Source of the DNA: Candidatus Uhrbacteria bacterium RIFOXYB12_FULL_58_10 | GTDB taxonomy: Bacteria > Patescibacteriota > Patescibacteriia > UBA9934 > GWF2-40-263 | Reading direction: 5' to 3' | Assembly (NCBI GenBank): GCA_943359455.1 | Contig: CALRHL010000011.1 | Location: forward strand, 1 to 38,445 | Length of the DNA stretch: 38,445 bases | Shown: piece by piece, positions 2,725 to 23,245 of the stretch | How the letters are laid out: the number at the start of each line of letters is the position of its first letter | Numbering within the stretch: position 1 is the stretch's first letter | Translations under genes and position numbers: made by a program | The notes under the pieces: generated by a model | Told to the model about the DNA's origin: nothing | What the model saw: only the letters and a program-made list of their open reading frames with translations | Databases searched by the model: none

Positions 2725-3918
2725 TTATTCTGTCACAATCCAGATTGTCTCGACATCCGTAATCACGAGTGCGTCGTCATCTTCTCGAGCCATCCCACGA
2801 ACGCGGATTTGATCATCGGCTGAAAGATCATCTTCTGTCACCTCCTCACGATCTTTCATGAAGACTGTGTCATCGTCATAATCTACGGTGACGGATGTAT
2901 ACTTTGCATCTTCCTCATCAGATGGTGTCATCACGATTTGATTTTCTTCCGTATCTACGGAATCAACCTCACCTGTATGACGCGCAACACCTTTGATCCA
3001 GATATTGTTGTCTTTGATGAGACGCGCGCTGATCGTTCCGTCATCGTTCACGCGACCAACAATCATCAAGTTATCTCCTGCTTGAAATTCATCGACTTCT
3101 GACGACCCCATAAATCGACGTACGAAATTTGTGTTTTCGTCATACACAATCGTCAGTTCGTCACCTTCCTCACCTACCAGATTATTTACATCAGAGGAGC
3201 GAAGATGTGAGTTCTCGAGTAGTGTCACAGAAAGGGATCCGGAATCATCGTCATCTTCATTGATATCATTCAACTCCACGAGAAACCCTCGTGTGCGAGC
3301 TTTCAAATAAATTTCATCCCCACGTCGCAAGACGACGACAATGCGCGCGTCTTCGGTATCCTTTTCAAGTCGAACACGGACACGATCTCCGATAACGAAA
3401 TCGGACAACGACGCAGGATTCGTCGAACCAACAACCATATGTGTATCGTCCGTGATATTCACAACATGATCTTCCTCGTTCCATTGAACGGTCATGGTAT
3501 CTGCATCCTCATCAACTTCTTGAATCCACCCATTTAATCCACGCATGTTGTATGGATTGAGCGAAGAGTTTACGACGGTTTCAGCAGTCACAACTCCCGT
3601 GTTCTCATTGAGTTCGCCAACCACGTGAAGATAATCTCCTGTGATCCAGTCGGACATGACGGTTGTATTGCCATCGTTCGTTCCAAAAACCGTTTCTTCG
3701 TCGATGTCGACGGTATAATCCGTAAATTCACCGGAAGGATCTTGTCGTACGACAATCGTCGTTGGCACATCTGTCGAGCTCAGCTCAATGAGTTGTCCCC
3801 AAAAATCGATATCGGAAGTTTCCTCAGACTCTGCCTTTACAATGGACATTGGAGCAAGAGCTGTAACAAGAACAAGAGCGGAAATACTCGTTTGAAAAAA
3901 TCGTTTTGTGATGGACAT
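2725..3918 (-). CDS. Secreted protein with repeated DUF5666-like beta domains
   Basis: Signal peptide-like N-terminus; repeated units such as TDYTVDIDEETVF...WITGDYLHVVGELNENTGVVTAETV. Confidence 0.7.
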   Translation of the reverse strand: MSITKRFFQTSISALVLVTALAPMSIVKAESEETSDIDFWGQLIELSSTDVPTTIVVRQDPSGEFTDYTVDIDEETVFGTNDGNTTVMSDWITGDYLHVVGELNENTGVVTAETVVNSSLNPYNMRGLNGWIQEVDEDADTMTVQWNEEDHVVNITDDTHMVVGSTNPASLSDFVIGDRVRVRLEKDTEDARIVVVLRRGDEIYLKARTRGFLVELNDINEDDDDSGSLSVTLLENSHLRSSDVNNLVGEEGDELTIVYDENTNFVRRFMGSSEVDEFQAGDNLMIVGRVNDDGTISARLIKDNNIWIKGVARHTGEVDSVDTEENQIVMTPSDEEDAKYTSVTVDYDDDTVFMKDREEVTEDDLSADDQIRVRGMAREDDDALVITDVETIWIVTE

Positions 3919-3938
3919 AAGAATAGAAATTAAAGAAA

Positions 3939-4529
3939 TTAAGGATTTTGTTCGCGCAGTGGCTGCAGCCGCTTGCGCATCATTTCTGGAGTTGGTGGAC
4001 GACGTGATTCGTCTTCAGATAATTGTACACGAGTATGAACACGTTCGTAACGATCGTTTTCTGTAGAAAGTTTTTCGATGATTTTATGACGACGTGGCAT
4101 CACCTCTACTTCTGTATTGAGCTCCTCAACAGATTGATCGAGCTCGATCGCAGCGGATTCGAGTACGGTCGAAATTTTCTCGCTCTGTTCTACCAAACGC
4201 TCTGCTTCATTCATGCGACGATTGTACATTTTTGCGTGAAACTCTGCGCGTGCTTCGGAAGTTGGTGCCATGCGCTCTTCCATCTTTTCCATGTTCTGTT
4301 TCATAAAATAAAGCGGGTGGCCTTCGATGACATCTGGACTCTCATAGGCATACACACCGGTTCCCATTCCAAAAACAAGGACAAGACAAAGCGCTCCGAC
4401 TGTTGCAAATCGAAAAACTGGACGTGGTTGTGGAACGCCTACGATTTTTTTGAGCAAGGCGTCAGAAAATGCACGCGTCGGGCGCGCTTCCCTTGCCATT
4501 CGATTTAATTGCCACTTGAGCCAGAACAT
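3939..4529 (-). CDS. DUF5667-like membrane protein, putative anti-sigma partner
   Basis: N-terminal cytoplasmic segment, one TM (FATVGALCLVLVFGMGTGVYAY), then SPDVIEGHPLYFMKQNMEKMEERMAPTSEARAEFHAKMYNRRMNEAERL; start overlaps the upstream ECF sigma gene. Confidence 0.75.
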   Translation of the reverse strand: MFWLKWQLNRMAREARPTRAFSDALLKKIVGVPQPRPVFRFATVGALCLVLVFGMGTGVYAYESPDVIEGHPLYFMKQNMEKMEERMAPTSEARAEFHAKMYNRRMNEAERLVEQSEKISTVLESAAIELDQSVEELNTEVEVMPRRHKIIEKLSTENDRYERVHTRVQLSEDESRRPPTPEMMRKRLQPLREQNP

Positions 4530-5044
4530 ATTGTTTTGAGTTTTTTCATGGCGCGAAACGTTGCCACTTTAAGTGTGTCTGCAGATTTTCCTAAAAGTGG
4601 CGCCATGTCTTCATATCCGTACCCTTCCAGATACTTCATCGTTACAAGGCGTCGTTCATCTTTATCAAGTTGTGAAAGCGATTTATCAATAAGCATTTCT
4701 GATTCGCGTCGTTGCATCGTTTCATGACCATCTTCCCCAATCGCGGTTAATGTCACATCTTCGAGATCAACATCCTGCTTGCGATCGCGATAGAAGTTGG
4801 CGAGATGATTGTGGGCGATACGATAGATCCACGCAGACCGGGAGACTTCTGGGTCGTATTTCGCAAACGCATGAAACGCTTTCATGAAAATTTCACTCAC
4901 CAAATCCTCTGCAACATCCCGATTTCGCCCAACACGAAAAAACACGTATCGAAAGATACGATCCATGTTTTCCCTGTAAAAAAGTTCAAAATCAGGCTTC
5001 ACAGGGGTATTGTACACGATTTTTACCGTGTGGTAACAGGTCAA
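4505..5044 (-). CDS. ECF-type RNA polymerase sigma-70 family factor
   Basis: FYRENMDRIFRYVFFRVGRNRDVAEDLVSEIFMKAFHAFAKYD...AWIYRIAHNHLANFYRDRK; region 4 DERRLVTMKYLEGYGYEDMAPLLGKSADTLKVATFRAMKKLK. Confidence 0.92.
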   Translation of the reverse strand: MTCYHTVKIVYNTPVKPDFELFYRENMDRIFRYVFFRVGRNRDVAEDLVSEIFMKAFHAFAKYDPEVSRSAWIYRIAHNHLANFYRDRKQDVDLEDVTLTAIGEDGHETMQRRESEMLIDKSLSQLDKDERRLVTMKYLEGYGYEDMAPLLGKSADTLKVATFRAMKKLKTICSGSSGN

Positions 5045-5636: not shown

Positions 5637-5990
5637 CTACCGTGCAAGAGCAACGGATGGAGCGGAAGCATTCACGTAGGTCGGGGTTTCAGCAGAAACG
5701 AGGCCGAGCATTTTAACAGATCGTGTGACGTTTTCGAGTGCACGTGCTTCGCGAGCCGTTACCTCAAGCTTTTGATTTTGTAGCGTGAGATCATGAATCG
5801 TGTCTTCGTATTCGCGAATGGTATAGCCATTTCCAACGGAACCGTTTACTTGAACGATGTAAACAATCGCGCAAAGCAAGACGAGAATCGTTGTAATAAC
5901 ATTCAGCGTAAATGTGTGCTGTGAAAAAAACGTAACAGCTGTGCGCGTTCCCTTTACACCAGAATACATTGTTTGTGAAAAATTGGACAT
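5637..5990 (-). CDS. FtsL-like small bitopic coiled-coil protein
   Basis: Directly downstream of rsmH; one TM (VITTILVLLCAIVYIVQV) followed by a coiled coil, the usual FtsL position and architecture. Confidence 0.65.
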   Translation of the reverse strand: MSNFSQTMYSGVKGTRTAVTFFSQHTFTLNVITTILVLLCAIVYIVQVNGSVGNGYTIREYEDTIHDLTLQNQKLEVTAREARALENVTRSVKMLGLVSAETPTYVNASAPSVALAR

Positions 5991-6008
5991 ATCCTCCTAC
6001 AGATATTT

Positions 6009-6956
6009 CTAGATTCGCTCTGCGACGCGCATTTTTGCGGATCGAGAACGTGGGTTTGAATGAATCTCTTTTTCGGATGGTGTGATGATACGTTTGTTGA
6101 TGGTATTGAGTGTTTTTCCTTGCTGTGCGGCGAAAAATTTCTTGATCATGCGATCTTCCAGAGAGTGAAACGAGATAATTGCAATACGGCCACCCGGACG
6201 AAGAAGATCAACCATGTCTGGCAGGGCACGGCTAAGTTCTCCTAATTCGTCATTGACCGCGATACGTAACGCTTGAAAGATACGGGTGGCCGGATGAATC
6301 TTTCCGCGACGATGAATCACCGACGCGACAAGCTCTGCCAATTGCAGGGTCGTCGTGATTCGTTTGTGTTTACGTTCCTGGTAGATTGCTTTTGCAAGAA
6401 TGTGTGAGGCGGGTTCCTCACCGTACACGCGAAAAATCTGTGCGAGATCATCTTGATTCCATCCGTTCACAATTCCTTCTGCGGTCAGCTCTTGCGTTTG
6501 ATCGTATCTCATGTCCAACGGTCCTTCATGCGAGAACGAAAATCCGCGTGACGCGTCTTCAATGTGACCCGAAGAGAATCCAAGATCAAGTAAAATGCCG
6601 TCAACGTGATTAAATCCTTGAACATATGCGTGTTGTTTTACCTGTGCATAACTATCCTGTACCAACACAAGGCTATTAGAAAACCTCTCCAGTCGCTTGC
6701 GTGCGATGGACAGGTTCACAGGGTCTCGATCGAAACCAAGAAGCCGGCACCCAGGAAGGCCGCGTAGAAGTATTGCTTCTGCGTGACCTCCCTGCCCCAC
6801 GGTGCCATCAATAAACAATCGTTCATCCGACGTTCGGATCTGTCTCATGGCCCCACCATGAGATACTTGGCCCGTTCGACGGGCTTGCTCCGGTTCATCT
6901 ACAAGGTGTAGTAACACCTCGGTGACCAGTATAGGAATGTGTGTCGGTTCAGCCAT
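6009..6956 (-). CDS. rsmH: 16S rRNA (cytosine1402-N4)-methyltransferase
   Basis: HIPILVTEVLLHL...FIDGTVGQGGHAEAIL...GILLDLGFSSGHIEDASRGFSF...RIFQALRIAVNDEL...IISFHSLEDRMIKKFF. Confidence 0.96.
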   Translation of the reverse strand: MAEPTHIPILVTEVLLHLVDEPEQARRTGQVSHGGAMRQIRTSDERLFIDGTVGQGGHAEAILLRGLPGCRLLGFDRDPVNLSIARKRLERFSNSLVLVQDSYAQVKQHAYVQGFNHVDGILLDLGFSSGHIEDASRGFSFSHEGPLDMRYDQTQELTAEGIVNGWNQDDLAQIFRVYGEEPASHILAKAIYQERKHKRITTTLQLAELVASVIHRRGKIHPATRIFQALRIAVNDELGELSRALPDMVDLLRPGGRIAIISFHSLEDRMIKKFFAAQQGKTLNTINKRIITPSEKEIHSNPRSRSAKMRVAERI

Positions 6957-6957
6957 A

Positions 6958-7389
6958 TCAGACTCCTAGTTCTCCCAGCTTTTCTGCGATATTTCCAACT
7001 TCCGCTTCTGTCGCCTTCTTATACGCCTCCCACTTTTCGGAATCCCACAGTTCGAGGCGGTTGTATAGTCCCGCGACCACAACCGCCTTTGTCATCCCGG
7101 CATACTGTCGGAGATATTCCGGCAGGATGATCCTTCCCTGTTTGTCTATGTCCACTTCCATTGCGCCCGCAAGCATGAGTCGGGCGAATGCACGTGAATT
7201 CGACTGTCCCAGGGGCAAGCTCGCTAATTTTAAAGCGAGTTTGTCCCACTCCTCCTTCGGGAACAGGAAAAGCGAAGTGTCGAGACCCCGCGTCACGACC
7301 GCCCCTTTCGCGAGGTCCAGACGAAACTTCACCGGGATCGCCAAGCGACCCTTGTCGTCGATGGTGTGGTTGTATTCGCCAATGAACAT
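6958..7389 (-). CDS. mraZ: Transcriptional regulator MraZ
   Basis: MFIGEYNHTIDDKGRLAIPVKFR..., two SpoVT/AbrB-like halves, adjacent to rsmH. Confidence 0.96.
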   Translation of the reverse strand: MFIGEYNHTIDDKGRLAIPVKFRLDLAKGAVVTRGLDTSLFLFPKEEWDKLALKLASLPLGQSNSRAFARLMLAGAMEVDIDKQGRIILPEYLRQYAGMTKAVVVAGLYNRLELWDSEKWEAYKKATEAEVGNIAEKLGELGV

Positions 7390-7470
7390 AGGCGGATCGT
7401 AAATGGCCCGAGGGGCTTACTTTTTTTGAAAAAAATAAGCGGTTCACCGGCTGGCCGTGCGCCAACCGAT

Positions 7471-7500
7471 TCCCCACTTTGTACCACTCGGTACCACTTA
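7471..7500 (-). promoter_or_regulatory. MraZ operator: three direct 10-bp-phased boxes
   Basis: Minus strand TAAGTGGTAC CGAGTGGTAC AAAGTGGGGA; core AGTGGK repeated every 10 bp upstream of mraZ. Confidence 0.8.
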
Positions 7501-7505
7501 TAGAC

Positions 7506-7534
7506 ATAATAGTCCTCTTCTCCACACACGTCAA
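7506..7534 (-). promoter_or_regulatory. Sigma70-type promoter for the mraZ operon
   Basis: Minus strand TTGACG (7534-7529), 17-nt spacer, TATTAT (7511-7506). Confidence 0.8.
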
Positions 7535-7572
7535 CACCAAACACCATCCAATTTTCTTAGCGAATTAAAGCC

Positions 7573-7604
7573 AAAAAAACAAAAATATCCACGAGCTGTG
7601 GATA
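7573..7604 (-). terminator. Intrinsic terminator after the MEMO/CapA gene
   Basis: Minus strand TATCCAC-AGCTC-GTGGATA followed by TTTTTGTTTTTTT. Confidence 0.8.
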
Positions 7605-7630
7605 ATTTTTTCTAAGATTCTAAACAGCCT

Positions 7631-9532
7631 CTAATACCAGCTAAACTTTCCATCTGTCGCGAATTCTTCAGGAAATTCCATGTTTTTGCTCCATGTGATA
7701 ATCCGAGCCAATGTATCTTCGCGCTCCTGGTCTGTGGCAGGACGCGGAAAATAACCATTAATCTGCATCGGGACAAGCTCAAGGAAACGTGTTCCGTTTT
7801 CATTCCATGTGAGGTTCACAATCAAACTCTCATTTTGATCTTCCCCAATTTGATCAAAAATAAAATTTCCGAGCGAATAAAGGATCAAGCCATTGTTGTA
7901 CGTTTCAATACCTTGAAGCACATGTGGGTGATGGCCAACGATCACATCTGCGCCAGCGTCGATTGCTGTGTGGGCGAGTTCAGTTTGACGCGCGGATGGT
8001 GTGTGTTGGTATTCTGCTCCCCAGTGAAACGAGACAACGAGAATGTCCCCAAGCGCATCTGCCGCTTTCACATCAGATTCTAATTGCGCAAGAGTAATCG
8101 GTCGAAACAAATCCTCATACGCTAAAAAGACAACATGATCTTTCACGACCGGTTCAACGTGATTGGAATAATCGCCTACTGGTTCGATCCCGGCATCGAT
8201 GAGATTCTGAACAGAATCCGCCCAACCTGCGTAGCCATAGTCGTCGATGTGATTGTTTGCAACCGAGACAACGTTCATTCCAAGGTACTGTAAAACATCC
8301 ACGCGTTCTGGTTCGCCTTTAAAGTAAATCTCCTTCCCTGTTGATGGTTCAACGTTCGTAAGAACAGATTCGAGATTTGCAAAAACAATGTCGCTTTCTG
8401 CGAACACTTCTTTCGCGTCAGAAAACGCTTGCTCGATGGTGATTTTATCCATCGCGGTTTTAACAGCACGGCCGAGCATGATGTCGCCGACGAGGGAGAT
8501 GGTGAAAGATTCGGAGGCTATAGGCTTTAGGCCGAGAGGGGTCGTGGAAAAAAAGACGAGGTAGCTTGTGCCGGGGGCGTTTGGGTCGTTTAAGATCCGA
8601 TGAGATGTTTCTTGCCAGATAAGGTTTGATTCAAAACCGTATTTATCGTTCCACATCAGATAGGCAATCAGCGCGAACGGCGAATCGAGATTGTCGGACT
8701 TGAGACGATCGATTTGCTCGTAGCGACGGCCTGCCATAAGGGCAAGTGTTTCGGCGTCCATCTCGTCTGTTGTGTCTTGTGGGAGGTAATGAGCAAAGTC
8801 GATACTTGAAATAATAAGTGCATCATCAGGGAGGATTTGCTGTAACACAAGAACGAGGGACTGAGCGTAGTCTGTTCCCGCCGTGGATTTAGCAACGATC
8901 GGAACGATTGGAACGTCTGGAAATAATTCGGCTAAGTAGGAGACGTGGGTTCCAATTGAGTGTTCATTAACAAATGATGTAGGTTCATCAGATGCGACTC
9001 CAAGTGAAACAAGACGATCGACGAGCACGTCATCTGTTTCGACCGTTCCAAACGGTGATGTCCAGACACCATGTGTTGTTTGAATTTGTTTCTCACCAGC
9101 GTTCTCATGGTTGGGTCCAATGACGACGATGACGGAAGGATCGGAGTTGTCCGCGATGTCTGTCCAGAGCTCCATGAGTTTTGTGCCGACAAGTGTGTGA
9201 TGAGGAAGAACGGCGGCGGAGATCTGACTCTCGGAATCGGACGCCACTAAAGTGGCTTTGAAATCAGGATTCCAAGCCACTTTAGTGGCGTCCGAAACAG
9301 AACTGATAACGTCCTGGATTCCGAGAATGTCAGTGATGGAAAAAACAGGACGGGTAACCACCCCCGACCCCTCCTTGAAAAGGAGGGGAGGTGAGACACT
9401 GGACGAATTCGTATATTCGGACAAATTCGGAATTCGGCTCACTACTGTTACGAGAAGCAAAACCAACACCGCGGCGATGAAGGCCGCGGTGAGGGTTTGG
9501 CGTTTATTCAGTGATCGTAATCGTTTGAGCAT
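7631..9532 (-). CDS. Membrane-anchored fusion: MEMO-like (AmmeMemoRadiSam system protein B) domain plus CapA-like domain
   Basis: N-terminal TM; MEMO-like LPHHTLVG...VVIGPNHEN...VNEHSIGTHVSYL; C-terminal CapA-like LVGDIMLGRAV...VFANLESVLT...VSVANNHIDDYG...VVSFHWGAEYQ...VGHHPHVLQGIE..ILYSLGNFIFDQ. Confidence 0.88.
   Translation of the reverse strand: MLKRLRSLNKRQTLTAAFIAAVLVLLLVTVVSRIPNLSEYTNSSSVSPPLLFKEGSGVVTRPVFSITDILGIQDVISSVSDATKVAWNPDFKATLVASDSESQISAAVLPHHTLVGTKLMELWTDIADNSDPSVIVVIGPNHENAGEKQIQTTHGVWTSPFGTVETDDVLVDRLVSLGVASDEPTSFVNEHSIGTHVSYLAELFPDVPIVPIVAKSTAGTDYAQSLVLVLQQILPDDALIISSIDFAHYLPQDTTDEMDAETLALMAGRRYEQIDRLKSDNLDSPFALIAYLMWNDKYGFESNLIWQETSHRILNDPNAPGTSYLVFFSTTPLGLKPIASESFTISLVGDIMLGRAVKTAMDKITIEQAFSDAKEVFAESDIVFANLESVLTNVEPSTGKEIYFKGEPERVDVLQYLGMNVVSVANNHIDDYGYAGWADSVQNLIDAGIEPVGDYSNHVEPVVKDHVVFLAYEDLFRPITLAQLESDVKAADALGDILVVSFHWGAEYQHTPSARQTELAHTAIDAGADVIVGHHPHVLQGIETYNNGLILYSLGNFIFDQIGEDQNESLIVNLTWNENGTRFLELVPMQINGYFPRPATDQEREDTLARIITWSKNMEFPEEFATDGKFSWY
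9237..9295. repeat. 59-bp perfect-arm inverted repeat inside the MEMO/CapA CDS
   Basis: 22-nt arms TCGGACGCCACTAAAGTGGCTT / AAGCCACTTTAGTGGCGTCCGA around a 15-nt loop. Confidence 0.95.
9356..9392. repeat. Palindromic element CCCCTCCTT-GAA-AAGGAGGGG inside the MEMO/CapA CDS
   Basis: 9-bp perfect stem (9368-9376/9380-9388) flanked by CACC/GGTG; encodes SPPLLFKEGSGVV. Confidence 0.85.
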
Positions 9533-21079: not shown

Positions 21080-23245
21080 TTACTTTTTCTCCTTCAGCTC
21101 CTTCTTCAACACCACAATCTCATCCCGCAAAATCGCCGCGGTCTCGAAATCGAGGTTGCGTGCGGCGATACGCATTCCTTCATTCTTATCCCGAATAATT
21201 TCCTCAATTTCTCCAGGCTCTGCTGTTAACTCTATTTTTAAAATCCTTTCTGTCTCTTCATCTTTCTTTCCAAGCATCTTTCGAATATCTTTAATATCTT
21301 TCAAAATGGTCTTTGGGGTAATCCCGTGTTTCTTATTATATGCAAGCTGAATCTTTCGACGTCGTTCTGTTTCCCCAATCGCCTTTTCTAAAGAACCAGT
21401 CATCACATCTGCGTACAAAATAACTCTCCCCTCAACGTTACGCGCCGCACGACCAATCGTTTGAATGATGGACGTTTCGGAACGCAAGAAACCTTCTTTG
21501 TCTGCATCAAGAATCGCGACAAGTGTGACTTCCGGCAGATCGAGACCTTCACGCAATAAATTCACTCCAATAAGCACGTCGTATTTCCCTTTTCGAAAAT
21601 CTGTCAGTGTTGTGATGCGATCGAGAGTTTCAACATCTGAGTGCAAATACTGCACCTTCATTTTTCGCTCAATCAGAAATTCTGTCAGATCCTCAGCCAT
21701 TTTTTTCGTGAGTGTCGTGACAAGTGTTCGTTCGTGCTTATCTGCGCGCATCACGATTTCGTCCACCAAATCCTCGACCTGACCCTTTATCTGCCCTGTC
21801 ACATGGGGGCGGAGTGCCGAGGTCCCCATCGCCCGGAGCGAAGTGAGGACGATGGGGTGGCACGCAGCTGGGGCCCCATGTGCTGAATCAGAACCTGTCA
21901 CTGGCCGAACTTCGATCACAGGATCCACGAGTCCCGTCGGGCGAATGATCTGTTCCACGAACCGATCGGAGTGCGCTTTCTCATACTTCCCTGGTGTCGC
22001 AGAAACAAAAACCGTCTGACCGATTTTTTTCTCAAACTCTTCAAATTTCAACGGTCGATTGTCTCTCGCGGACGGTAAACGAAATCCATGCTCAATGAGC
22101 GTATCTTTGCGCGCTCGATCTCCTGCATACATACCACCGACTTGCGAAACCGTAACATGTGATTCATCGATCACGGTCAAAAAATCATCCGGAAAATAAT
22201 CCATGAGTGTGTATGGTGGTTCACCTTCTTTTCGACCGTCAAAATGTCGGGAATAGTTTTCGATTCCGTTACAGTAACCAATATTTTCCATCATCTCTAG
22301 ATCGTAACGCGTGCGACGAGACAAACGGTCGGCTTCGAGAAGTTTCCCGTCGACATCAAACTGTTGGAGTTGGTCTGCAAGCTCCTGACGAATATCCGCG
22401 ATCGCTTTCTTCTGATGATCTGAGGAAACGACGTAATGCTTTGCAGGAAAAATCCACACATCCGGAACATGTTCCAACTCTTTGCGACTGATGGCATCAA
22501 GCAAAATAATGTCTCGCACACACTCTTCCTCAAAAATCAAACGATAAATAATCTCTTCTTGCATCGGCATTATTTCAACAACATCACCTCGCGCGCGAAA
22601 ATGTCCGCGAGTGAGATCGGCCGTCGTTCGTTCAAACTGCATATCGATGAGACGGTGAAGGACGTCAGATCTGTTCACAGGGACTTTCCCGCCATCGGGC
22701 GGGACCCCGCCAACGGCGGTGGTAGTCCCGTCCGTCTGTACCGATCCGACGCCACTAAAGTGGCTTTGAATATGTAAAACAGTCTTCTCATATTCCTTCG
22801 GACTTCCCAATCCATAAATACAGGAAACAGATGCGACGATAATGACGTCGCGACGGGTCAACAAAGATTGTGTTGCCGCATGGCGTAAACGGTCGATTTC
22901 TTGATTGATCATCGCCTCTTTTTCAATAAAGGTATCTGTCCGCGGCATGTACGCTTCTGGCTGATAATAATCGTAATACGAAACAAAATACTCTACGGCA
23001 TTTTCAGGAAAAAATTCTCGAAACTCACTGCATAATTGTGCAGCGAGTGTTTTATTGTGCGCAATGACAAGTGTTGGACGCTGAACGTTTTGTATCAAGT
23101 TCGCAACCGTAAAAGTCTTCCCAGATCCAGTCACCCCAAGCAATGTCTGAAAGCGATCGCCAGAACTCAAACCAGCCGTCAATTGCTCAATGGCCTTCGG
23201 CTGATCCCCAGCAGGCTGATAATCAGATCGTAAATAAAACTCCAT
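21080..23245 (-). CDS. uvrB: UvrABC system protein B carrying two in-frame insertions
   Basis: [18 protein letters not shown]...[15 protein letters not shown]...[38 protein letters not shown]...VSATPGKYE...[42 protein letters not shown]-terminal UVR motif. Confidence 0.97.
21795..21901. repeat. Inserted palindromic element flanked by 8-bp direct repeats (uvrB)
   Basis: CCTGTCAC at 21795-21802 and 21894-21901 (99-bp period); outer inverted repeat CACATGGGG/CCCCATGTG (21800-21808/21874-21882), inner CCCCATCG/CGATGGGG (21824-21831/21850-21857). Confidence 0.9.
22678..22732. repeat. 55-bp structured repeat, copy 1 (uvrB)
   Basis: CAGGGACTTTCCCGCCATCGGGCGGGACCCCGCCAACGGCGGTGGTAGTCCCGTC; exact reverse complement at 33634-33688. 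Confidence 0.97.
22745..22770. repeat. Half copy of the GACGCCACTAAAGTGGCTTTGAA element (uvrB)
   Basis: 23 nt (22748-22770) identical to 9240-9262 in the MEMO/CapA gene. Confidence 0.95.

Follow-up and report, generated by a model that had tools for sequence, protein, structure and literature searches.

Short palindromic DNA lying in-frame in the genes of conserved proteins, at a tolerated surface loop, has been described as Rickettsia palindromic elements (RPEs) and as intragenic REPs (PMC10969869, PMC3733652), and in-frame inserts of this kind are mostly read as harmless parasites. In Bacillus subtilis, methylation of 16S rRNA C1402 by MraW/RsmH is reported to aid the translation of mRNAs with early stem-loops (2026 preprint, PMC13317604): MraW-dependent early stem-loops in cmpA, isp, and yukJ limit translation, that of yukJ being formed by codons 2 to 12 only. 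The MraZ boxes of the dcw operon are direct repeats of the form (AAAGTGKN3)3 in promoter/leader DNA (PMC5282649, PMC7761207). Here, we compare with these systems an in-frame extension of the rsmH gene in a Candidatus Uhrbacteria genome (G000; 1.07 Mb, 44 contigs).

The gene lies in an operon with mraZ in the window analyzed, which is a stretch of 38,445 nucleotides (Table 1). The FtsL-like gene at 5637 to 5990 is without a Pfam match, and the repeats ahead of mraZ resemble the (AAAGTGKN3)3 boxes of PMC5282649. Along the minus strand of window positions 7400 to 7510, the mraZ leader runs from the promoter through GTGG repeats ending in AAGTGGGGAT to a variable hairpin. The order is the same in L069, L070, L073, L082, L083, and L088, other genera adding GCTCACTTTT after the hairpin, and the whole resembles a leader, perhaps an attenuator, whose structure is conserved. 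Genes for an ECF-type sigma factor (4505 to 5044), a DUF5667 protein (3939 to 4529), and a DUF5666 protein (2725 to 3918) follow the division genes on their downstream side (window 2725 to 5044).

Table 1. Features of the mraZ-rsmH region and of related hairpins (window positions unless a contig handle is given)
Feature	Position	Strand	Basis or remarks
rsmH (mraW), 16S rRNA m4C1402 methyltransferase, 315 aa	6009..6956	-	Pfam PF01795, E 5.7e-96; PDB relatives 1m6y, 1wg8, 3tka
mraZ, same operon as rsmH, upstream	6958..7389	-	Pfam PF02381
FtsL-like small membrane protein gene, 3' of rsmH	5637..5990	-	ORF that follows; hydrophobic segment at the N terminus; resembles its counterparts in all relatives
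MraZ-type direct repeats AGTGGTACCG AGTGGTACAA AGTGGGGAAT, 10-nt period, mraZ leader	7470..7499	-	Sequence; family-wide conservation
Sigma-70-type promoter TTGACG-N17-TATTAT, upstream of mraZ	7506..7534	-	Sequence; similar promoter in several family members
Genus-specific in-frame extension ARRTGQVSHGGAMRQIRTSDE, ~21 codons, about codons 25-45	6822..6884	-	Lacking in the rest of the family and in nearly all of 74 RsmH
Hairpin H1, GCCCGT-CGA-ACGGGC (loop tcg on + strand)	6870..6884	-	Seen in this species only
Hairpin H2, TCTCATGG-TGGGG-CCATGAGA, conserved element, codons 32-38	6843..6863	-	Same loop, compensated stems in G003 and G004
Hairpin H3, ATCCGA-ACG-TCGGAT	6825..6839	-	Sequence
NCCCCAC hairpins	L073:2130-2150, L077:2390-2410, L088:2329-2349		rsmH-ftsL junction
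NCCCCAC hairpins, further rsmH-ftsL junctions	L067, L069, L071, L072, L076, L078, L082-L084, L090, L250, L251		

The extension occupies the loop that leads from helix 1 (TEVLLHL) to the first Rossmann strand (LFIDG). On the coding strand, it consists of H1, the spacer CAAGTA, H2, the spacer CAG, and H3, that is, three consecutive perfect hairpins. The first-pass annotation had described a double hairpin; both of its hairpins (TCTCATGG-cccca-CCATGAGA and GCCCGT-tcg-ACGGGC in plus-strand letters) are where it placed them and in-frame in RsmH, but H3 had gone uncounted, and SDER, which precedes LFIDGT, was missing from the peptide that it listed. The predicted fold of the extension is made up of stems H1 to H3 (−28.3 kcal/mol for 72 nt; z = −3.0 versus dinucleotide shuffles). 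Ranked against codon shuffles, folding was only moderately exceptional in each genome (13/500 in G000, 45/500 and 36/500 in the two congeners discussed below). Three nonoverlapping perfect hairpins within 70 nt (stem of ≥6, loop of 3 to 6) were found in rsmH alone among 1,025 ORFs with relatives and in 1 of 5,125 codon-shuffled ORFs, an expectation of about 0.2 per genome with chance judged within G000 only; the triplet by itself is therefore striking, yet only moderately unusual and not decisive.

We next consider how the extension is distributed, based on a search of sixty relatives and then of all 43 family members. It is restricted to this genus, where it is present in the three genomes that have rsmH (G000, G003 with PEQQVASSRGAGSDAPTQHTGRLPEEQLLIDG, and G004 with PEQKEMQARGASFIDG); mraZ and rsmH had no match in the other two, G001 and G002, the latter despite its 96% completeness. 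Other genera have PEPNHLFIDG or similar in the corresponding segment. In a set of 74 RsmH sequences that spans all sampled phyla, the HxPV motif and the strand 1 Asp lie a median of 22 residues apart, and such an insert was found at this site in 5, representing 4 distinct genomes, which bears out the earlier remark that a few residues are the norm for RsmH here. Alignment with relatives showed no conservation of the extension across distant RsmH proteins, so that the first-pass annotation withstood the check it had itself proposed. The fourth genome is that of an unrelated patescibacterium, L126 (JAHIUN010000002.1), in which the inserted peptide is MPAGRQAG and the DNA is a palindrome, CCTGCCGGCAGG, that is multicopy in that genome. 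Given this unrelated palindromic insert at the same site, the connection between helix 1 and strand 1 is a permissive loop that has taken up palindromic DNA more than once; the insert contains palindromic DNA in all four genomes that have one.

Among the congeners, the amino acids of the extension are unconserved. AlphaFold confidence for RsmH falls below a pLDDT of 50 at residues 30 to 37 (model mean, 91.6), so that the extension is predicted to be a disordered loop. The reading frame through the insert is open in all three species; bypassing of the T4 gene 60 type need not be invoked.

In contrast to the peptide, H2 is found at the same place in both rsmH-bearing congeners with an invariant loop, GTGGGGC (alignment: TCTCATGG-TGGGG-CCATGAGA in G000, TCATCCCG-TGGGG-CGGGATCT in G003, and CAGGCTCG-TGGGG-CGAGCTTC in G004). 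The apical loop, UGGGG, is closed by a G-C pair on a perfect stem of 5 to 8 bp, which in G003 and G004 is extended by further pairing with small bulges. Each of the three species forms all six stem pairs (100% of cells; one pair is G-U), and both sides have changed in five of these pairs across the species; sliding the partners by 1 to 3 columns lowered pairing to 20 to 50%. H1 and H3 are not common to the congeners, and at the place corresponding to H3, G003 has an unrelated hairpin (CGACCC-AGCATAC-GGGTCG). Between these genomes, four-fold sites are almost saturated (mean identity, 0.33; GC of 47, 57, and 61%), and for this reason seven invariant nucleotides amid sequence that does not otherwise align suggest constraint. 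Covarying pairs around a conserved loop, the pattern by which a conserved cis-acting RNA stem-loop is recognized, are thus present, although in only three sequences, so that independent changes are not well countable. Rfam gave no credible match in window positions 5800 to 7700.

We also asked how unusual H2 is within these genomes. The sequence covered contains 62, 45, and 22 GTGGGGC sites in G000, G003, and G004, respectively, and in each genome no other such site equals the perfect stem at rsmH (8, 6, and 5). A covariance model of H2 scored the rsmH sites, its training sequences, at 24.5 to 26.5 bits across the five genomes of the genus, and the next match at 16.5. A scan of orthologous pairs (737 + 463) then looked for positionally matching hairpins that share an identical loop of ≥4 nt; it covered 711 kb of G003 and 380 kb of G004. 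The sole gene to combine an identical loop with at least 3 changed stem positions was rsmH (5 differences with G003 and 3 with G004; 0 to 2 in every other case).

Constraint on the nucleic acid most simply accounts for a hairpin that persists although the peptide it encodes is neither conserved nor ordered, and we infer selection at that level rather than on the peptide. Since the stem has been retained by compensatory change, we favor a role in mRNA over one in DNA, and H2 would then work in the transcript. The explanation we favor from these comparisons, which we judge about equally apt to hold or to fail, is that H2 arose in an insert into a permissive loop and that its structure has since been preserved, most probably as an element in the mRNA of the mraZ-rsmH operon. 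Under this explanation, a disordered, permissive loop of RsmH in the ancestor of the genus would have acquired a short, palindrome-rich in-frame insert, of which H2 was afterwards retained as a structure in the three rsmH copies while nearly all else, the amino acids included, turned over; H1 and H3 would be additional, lineage-specific hairpins. Within the mraZ-rsmH-ftsL mRNA, H2 would act as a cis-acting stem-loop at codons 32 to 38 that either slows translating ribosomes or exposes UGGGG for recognition by a partner, protein or RNA, thereby setting RsmH output. Against this explanation, the loop encodes (R/G)-G-A, so that its conservation may be partly at the protein level, and the very different stems may reflect replacement of the insert instead of gradual compensation, since the rsmH DNA flanking it is conserved above average. 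DNA identity between the congeners is high in mraZ and 5' rsmH, which constraint on codons or DNA would explain as well as horizontal exchange, given that four-fold-site identity in mraZ is raised throughout the family (0.45). Between congeners, mraZ (6958 to 7389) has the top four-fold-site identity of all genes compared (0.56 with G003 among 349 genes; 0.63 with G004 among 206 genes).

The main rival to a retained mRNA hairpin is neutral turnover of palindromes, in which a permissive loop has palindromes inserted or re-formed within it by snap-back synthesis or template switching between arms, and pairing is a functionless by-product of mutation. G000 is rich in palindromes (550 hairpins with a stem of ≥8 versus about 145 in Markov sequence), those within ORFs are twice as common as in codon shuffles (119 versus 55 to 64), and palindromes are overrepresented among the in-frame indels that distinguish congeners (22 of 167 at P ≤ 0.05). 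Neutral turnover also explains the L126 insert well, along with H1 and H3, which are not shared, and it accords with the presence of palindromic DNA in every genome that has an insert here. However, although template switching can repair pairing, it leaves unexplained why the loop and its closing pair are identical in three species, and the ortholog scan found no other gene in which an identical loop sits on a turned-over stem. We regard neutral turnover as possible but rather unlikely. The in-frame indels that separate G000 from G003 and G004 genome-wide are often palindromic repeats themselves (e.g., ASEAKQS... and PLPLLKKEG...), an RPE-like habit in Uhrbacteria, and several of them are copies of multicopy families in G000.

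If H2 is indeed a retained mRNA element, its location in rsmH raises the idea of feedback. Because MraW/RsmH methylation is reported to aid the translation of stem-loop mRNAs, a stem-loop inside rsmH could sensitize the gene to its own product. The hairpin would make rsmH translation depend on RsmH-methylated ribosomes in the first cell-division operon, and related genera would place the corresponding control over the start of the next, ftsL-like gene as a CCCCAC-loop hairpin. We consider this proposal improbable, and the conserved loop of H2 is not explained by it. The hairpins in question were first met when searching with the H2 model. They have the loop NCCCCAC on a covarying stem of 5 to 6 bp, occur directly after rsmH in roughly half of the remaining genera, and sit at the FtsL-like start codon or overlap it, replacing the Shine-Dalgarno sequence. 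Their loop is the reverse complement of both the H2 loop and the third MraZ repeat. In most genomes that carry the hairpin, it is the top match of its own model, and in this genus it is absent. A model built from these hairpins (R2) did not bring up H2, and a relation between the two is conjectural. The NCCCCAC hairpin looks like an undescribed cis-acting RNA element of this Uhrbacteria family.

Two further explanations are improbable in our view. According to the first, H2 descends from a dispersed selfish palindrome of the REP or RPE type that was inserted in-frame, as its palindromic, in-frame character might suggest; the first-pass annotation had likewise seen the insert as similar in style to others in the window. 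Multicopy palindrome families do exist in G000 (CCCCTCCTTGAAAAGGAGGGG, 19 copies; GACCGTCACTTAGTGACGGTC, 11; GACGCCACTAAAGTGGC, 9 to 11) and make up part of its wealth of hairpins; it also has two Y1-type transposase genes (PF01797 matches), the latter with no link to the rsmH locus. However, copy number largely refutes this explanation: the insert matches none of these families, and the genome-wide search that the annotation had proposed, covering 1,071,093 of 1,071,164 bases, found its DNA in single copy. No dispersed family with a TGGGG loop was found in the genus, the GTAG or CGTC tag is absent from the hairpin ends at 6825 to 6884 (CGTC occurs only inside H1 and H3), and congeners have the insert at the same site with a changed stem sequence. 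The likeness in style is therefore not supported, since the rsmH hairpin keeps structure rather than sequence, unlike a recent dispersed-repeat insertion. Copies of GACGCCACTAAAGTGGC at 9236 to 9296 and 22744 to 22770 lie in-frame in a PGA_cap/Memo-like protein and in UvrB; the latter may be compared with intragenic REPs in repair genes (PMC3733652).

According to the second, the extension is a variable linker in which the protein keeps an R/G-G-A tripeptide, or chance alone has operated, and the hairpins are coincidental. The loop codons do encode GGA, RGA, and RGA, and the single-genome folding ranks given above are modest. Nevertheless, when these core codons were held fixed and the other extension codons were shuffled, few shuffles matched the observed H2 stem (P = 0.001 in G000, 0.006 in G003, and 0.011 in G004), and rsmH is unique in the ortholog scan. 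Least probable of all is a palindromic DNA site for MraZ within rsmH, with GTGGGG in the H2 loop as its box core. In its favor, AAAGTGGGGA is the third of the MraZ-type repeats ahead of mraZ, and related genera have a hairpin with the reverse-complement loop, CCCCAC, just after rsmH. However, known sites are direct repeats (AAAGTGKN3, 10-nt period; PMC5282649) of which a base-paired stem is not part, H2 has one GTGGGG without repeat and without AAA (it is preceded by ATG, CCC, or CTC), and model R2 did not rank H2 in G000, G003, or G004. Two GTGGGG occurrences in rsmH, also considered in this connection, are spaced differently between species as judged by eye and were set aside.

A retained H2 would make this insert a candidate for a coding-region insertion that has become a regulatory RNA element, its structure kept while the protein sequence drifts. 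According to a recent report, RsmH assists the translation of stem-loop mRNAs, and the location of the insert in rsmH makes self-regulation directly testable. The anticodon arm of a tRNA-Pro(GGG) (CTTGCC-TGGGG-GGCAAG; L043:4272-4348) has the same UGGGG loop and 32-38 pair as H2; by a rough estimate, an H2-like anticodon arm would be found for some tRNA by chance about 1 time in 20.

Set against the known systems, H2 has the GTGGGG core and the operon in common with MraZ boxes but presents a single core in a hairpin. In the MraW-dependent early stem-loops of B. subtilis, the enzyme reported to help, MraW, is RsmH itself, and the yukJ hairpin, like H2, lies wholly within codons; H2 lies deeper in its gene, at codons 32 to 38, than the described cases (codons 2 to 12 in yukJ), and a link to MraW/RsmH-dependent translation is speculative. 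As with Rickettsia palindromic elements, the insert is palindromic, folds as hairpins, and is in-frame in a protein gene. The palindrome in L126 shares these in-frame, palindromic features in the same loop of the same protein, but it is multicopy and unrelated in sequence. REPs and RPEs are dispersed and multicopy, REPs carrying GTAG or CGTC tags, whereas the rsmH insert is single copy and its H2 keeps its structure while its sequence changes.
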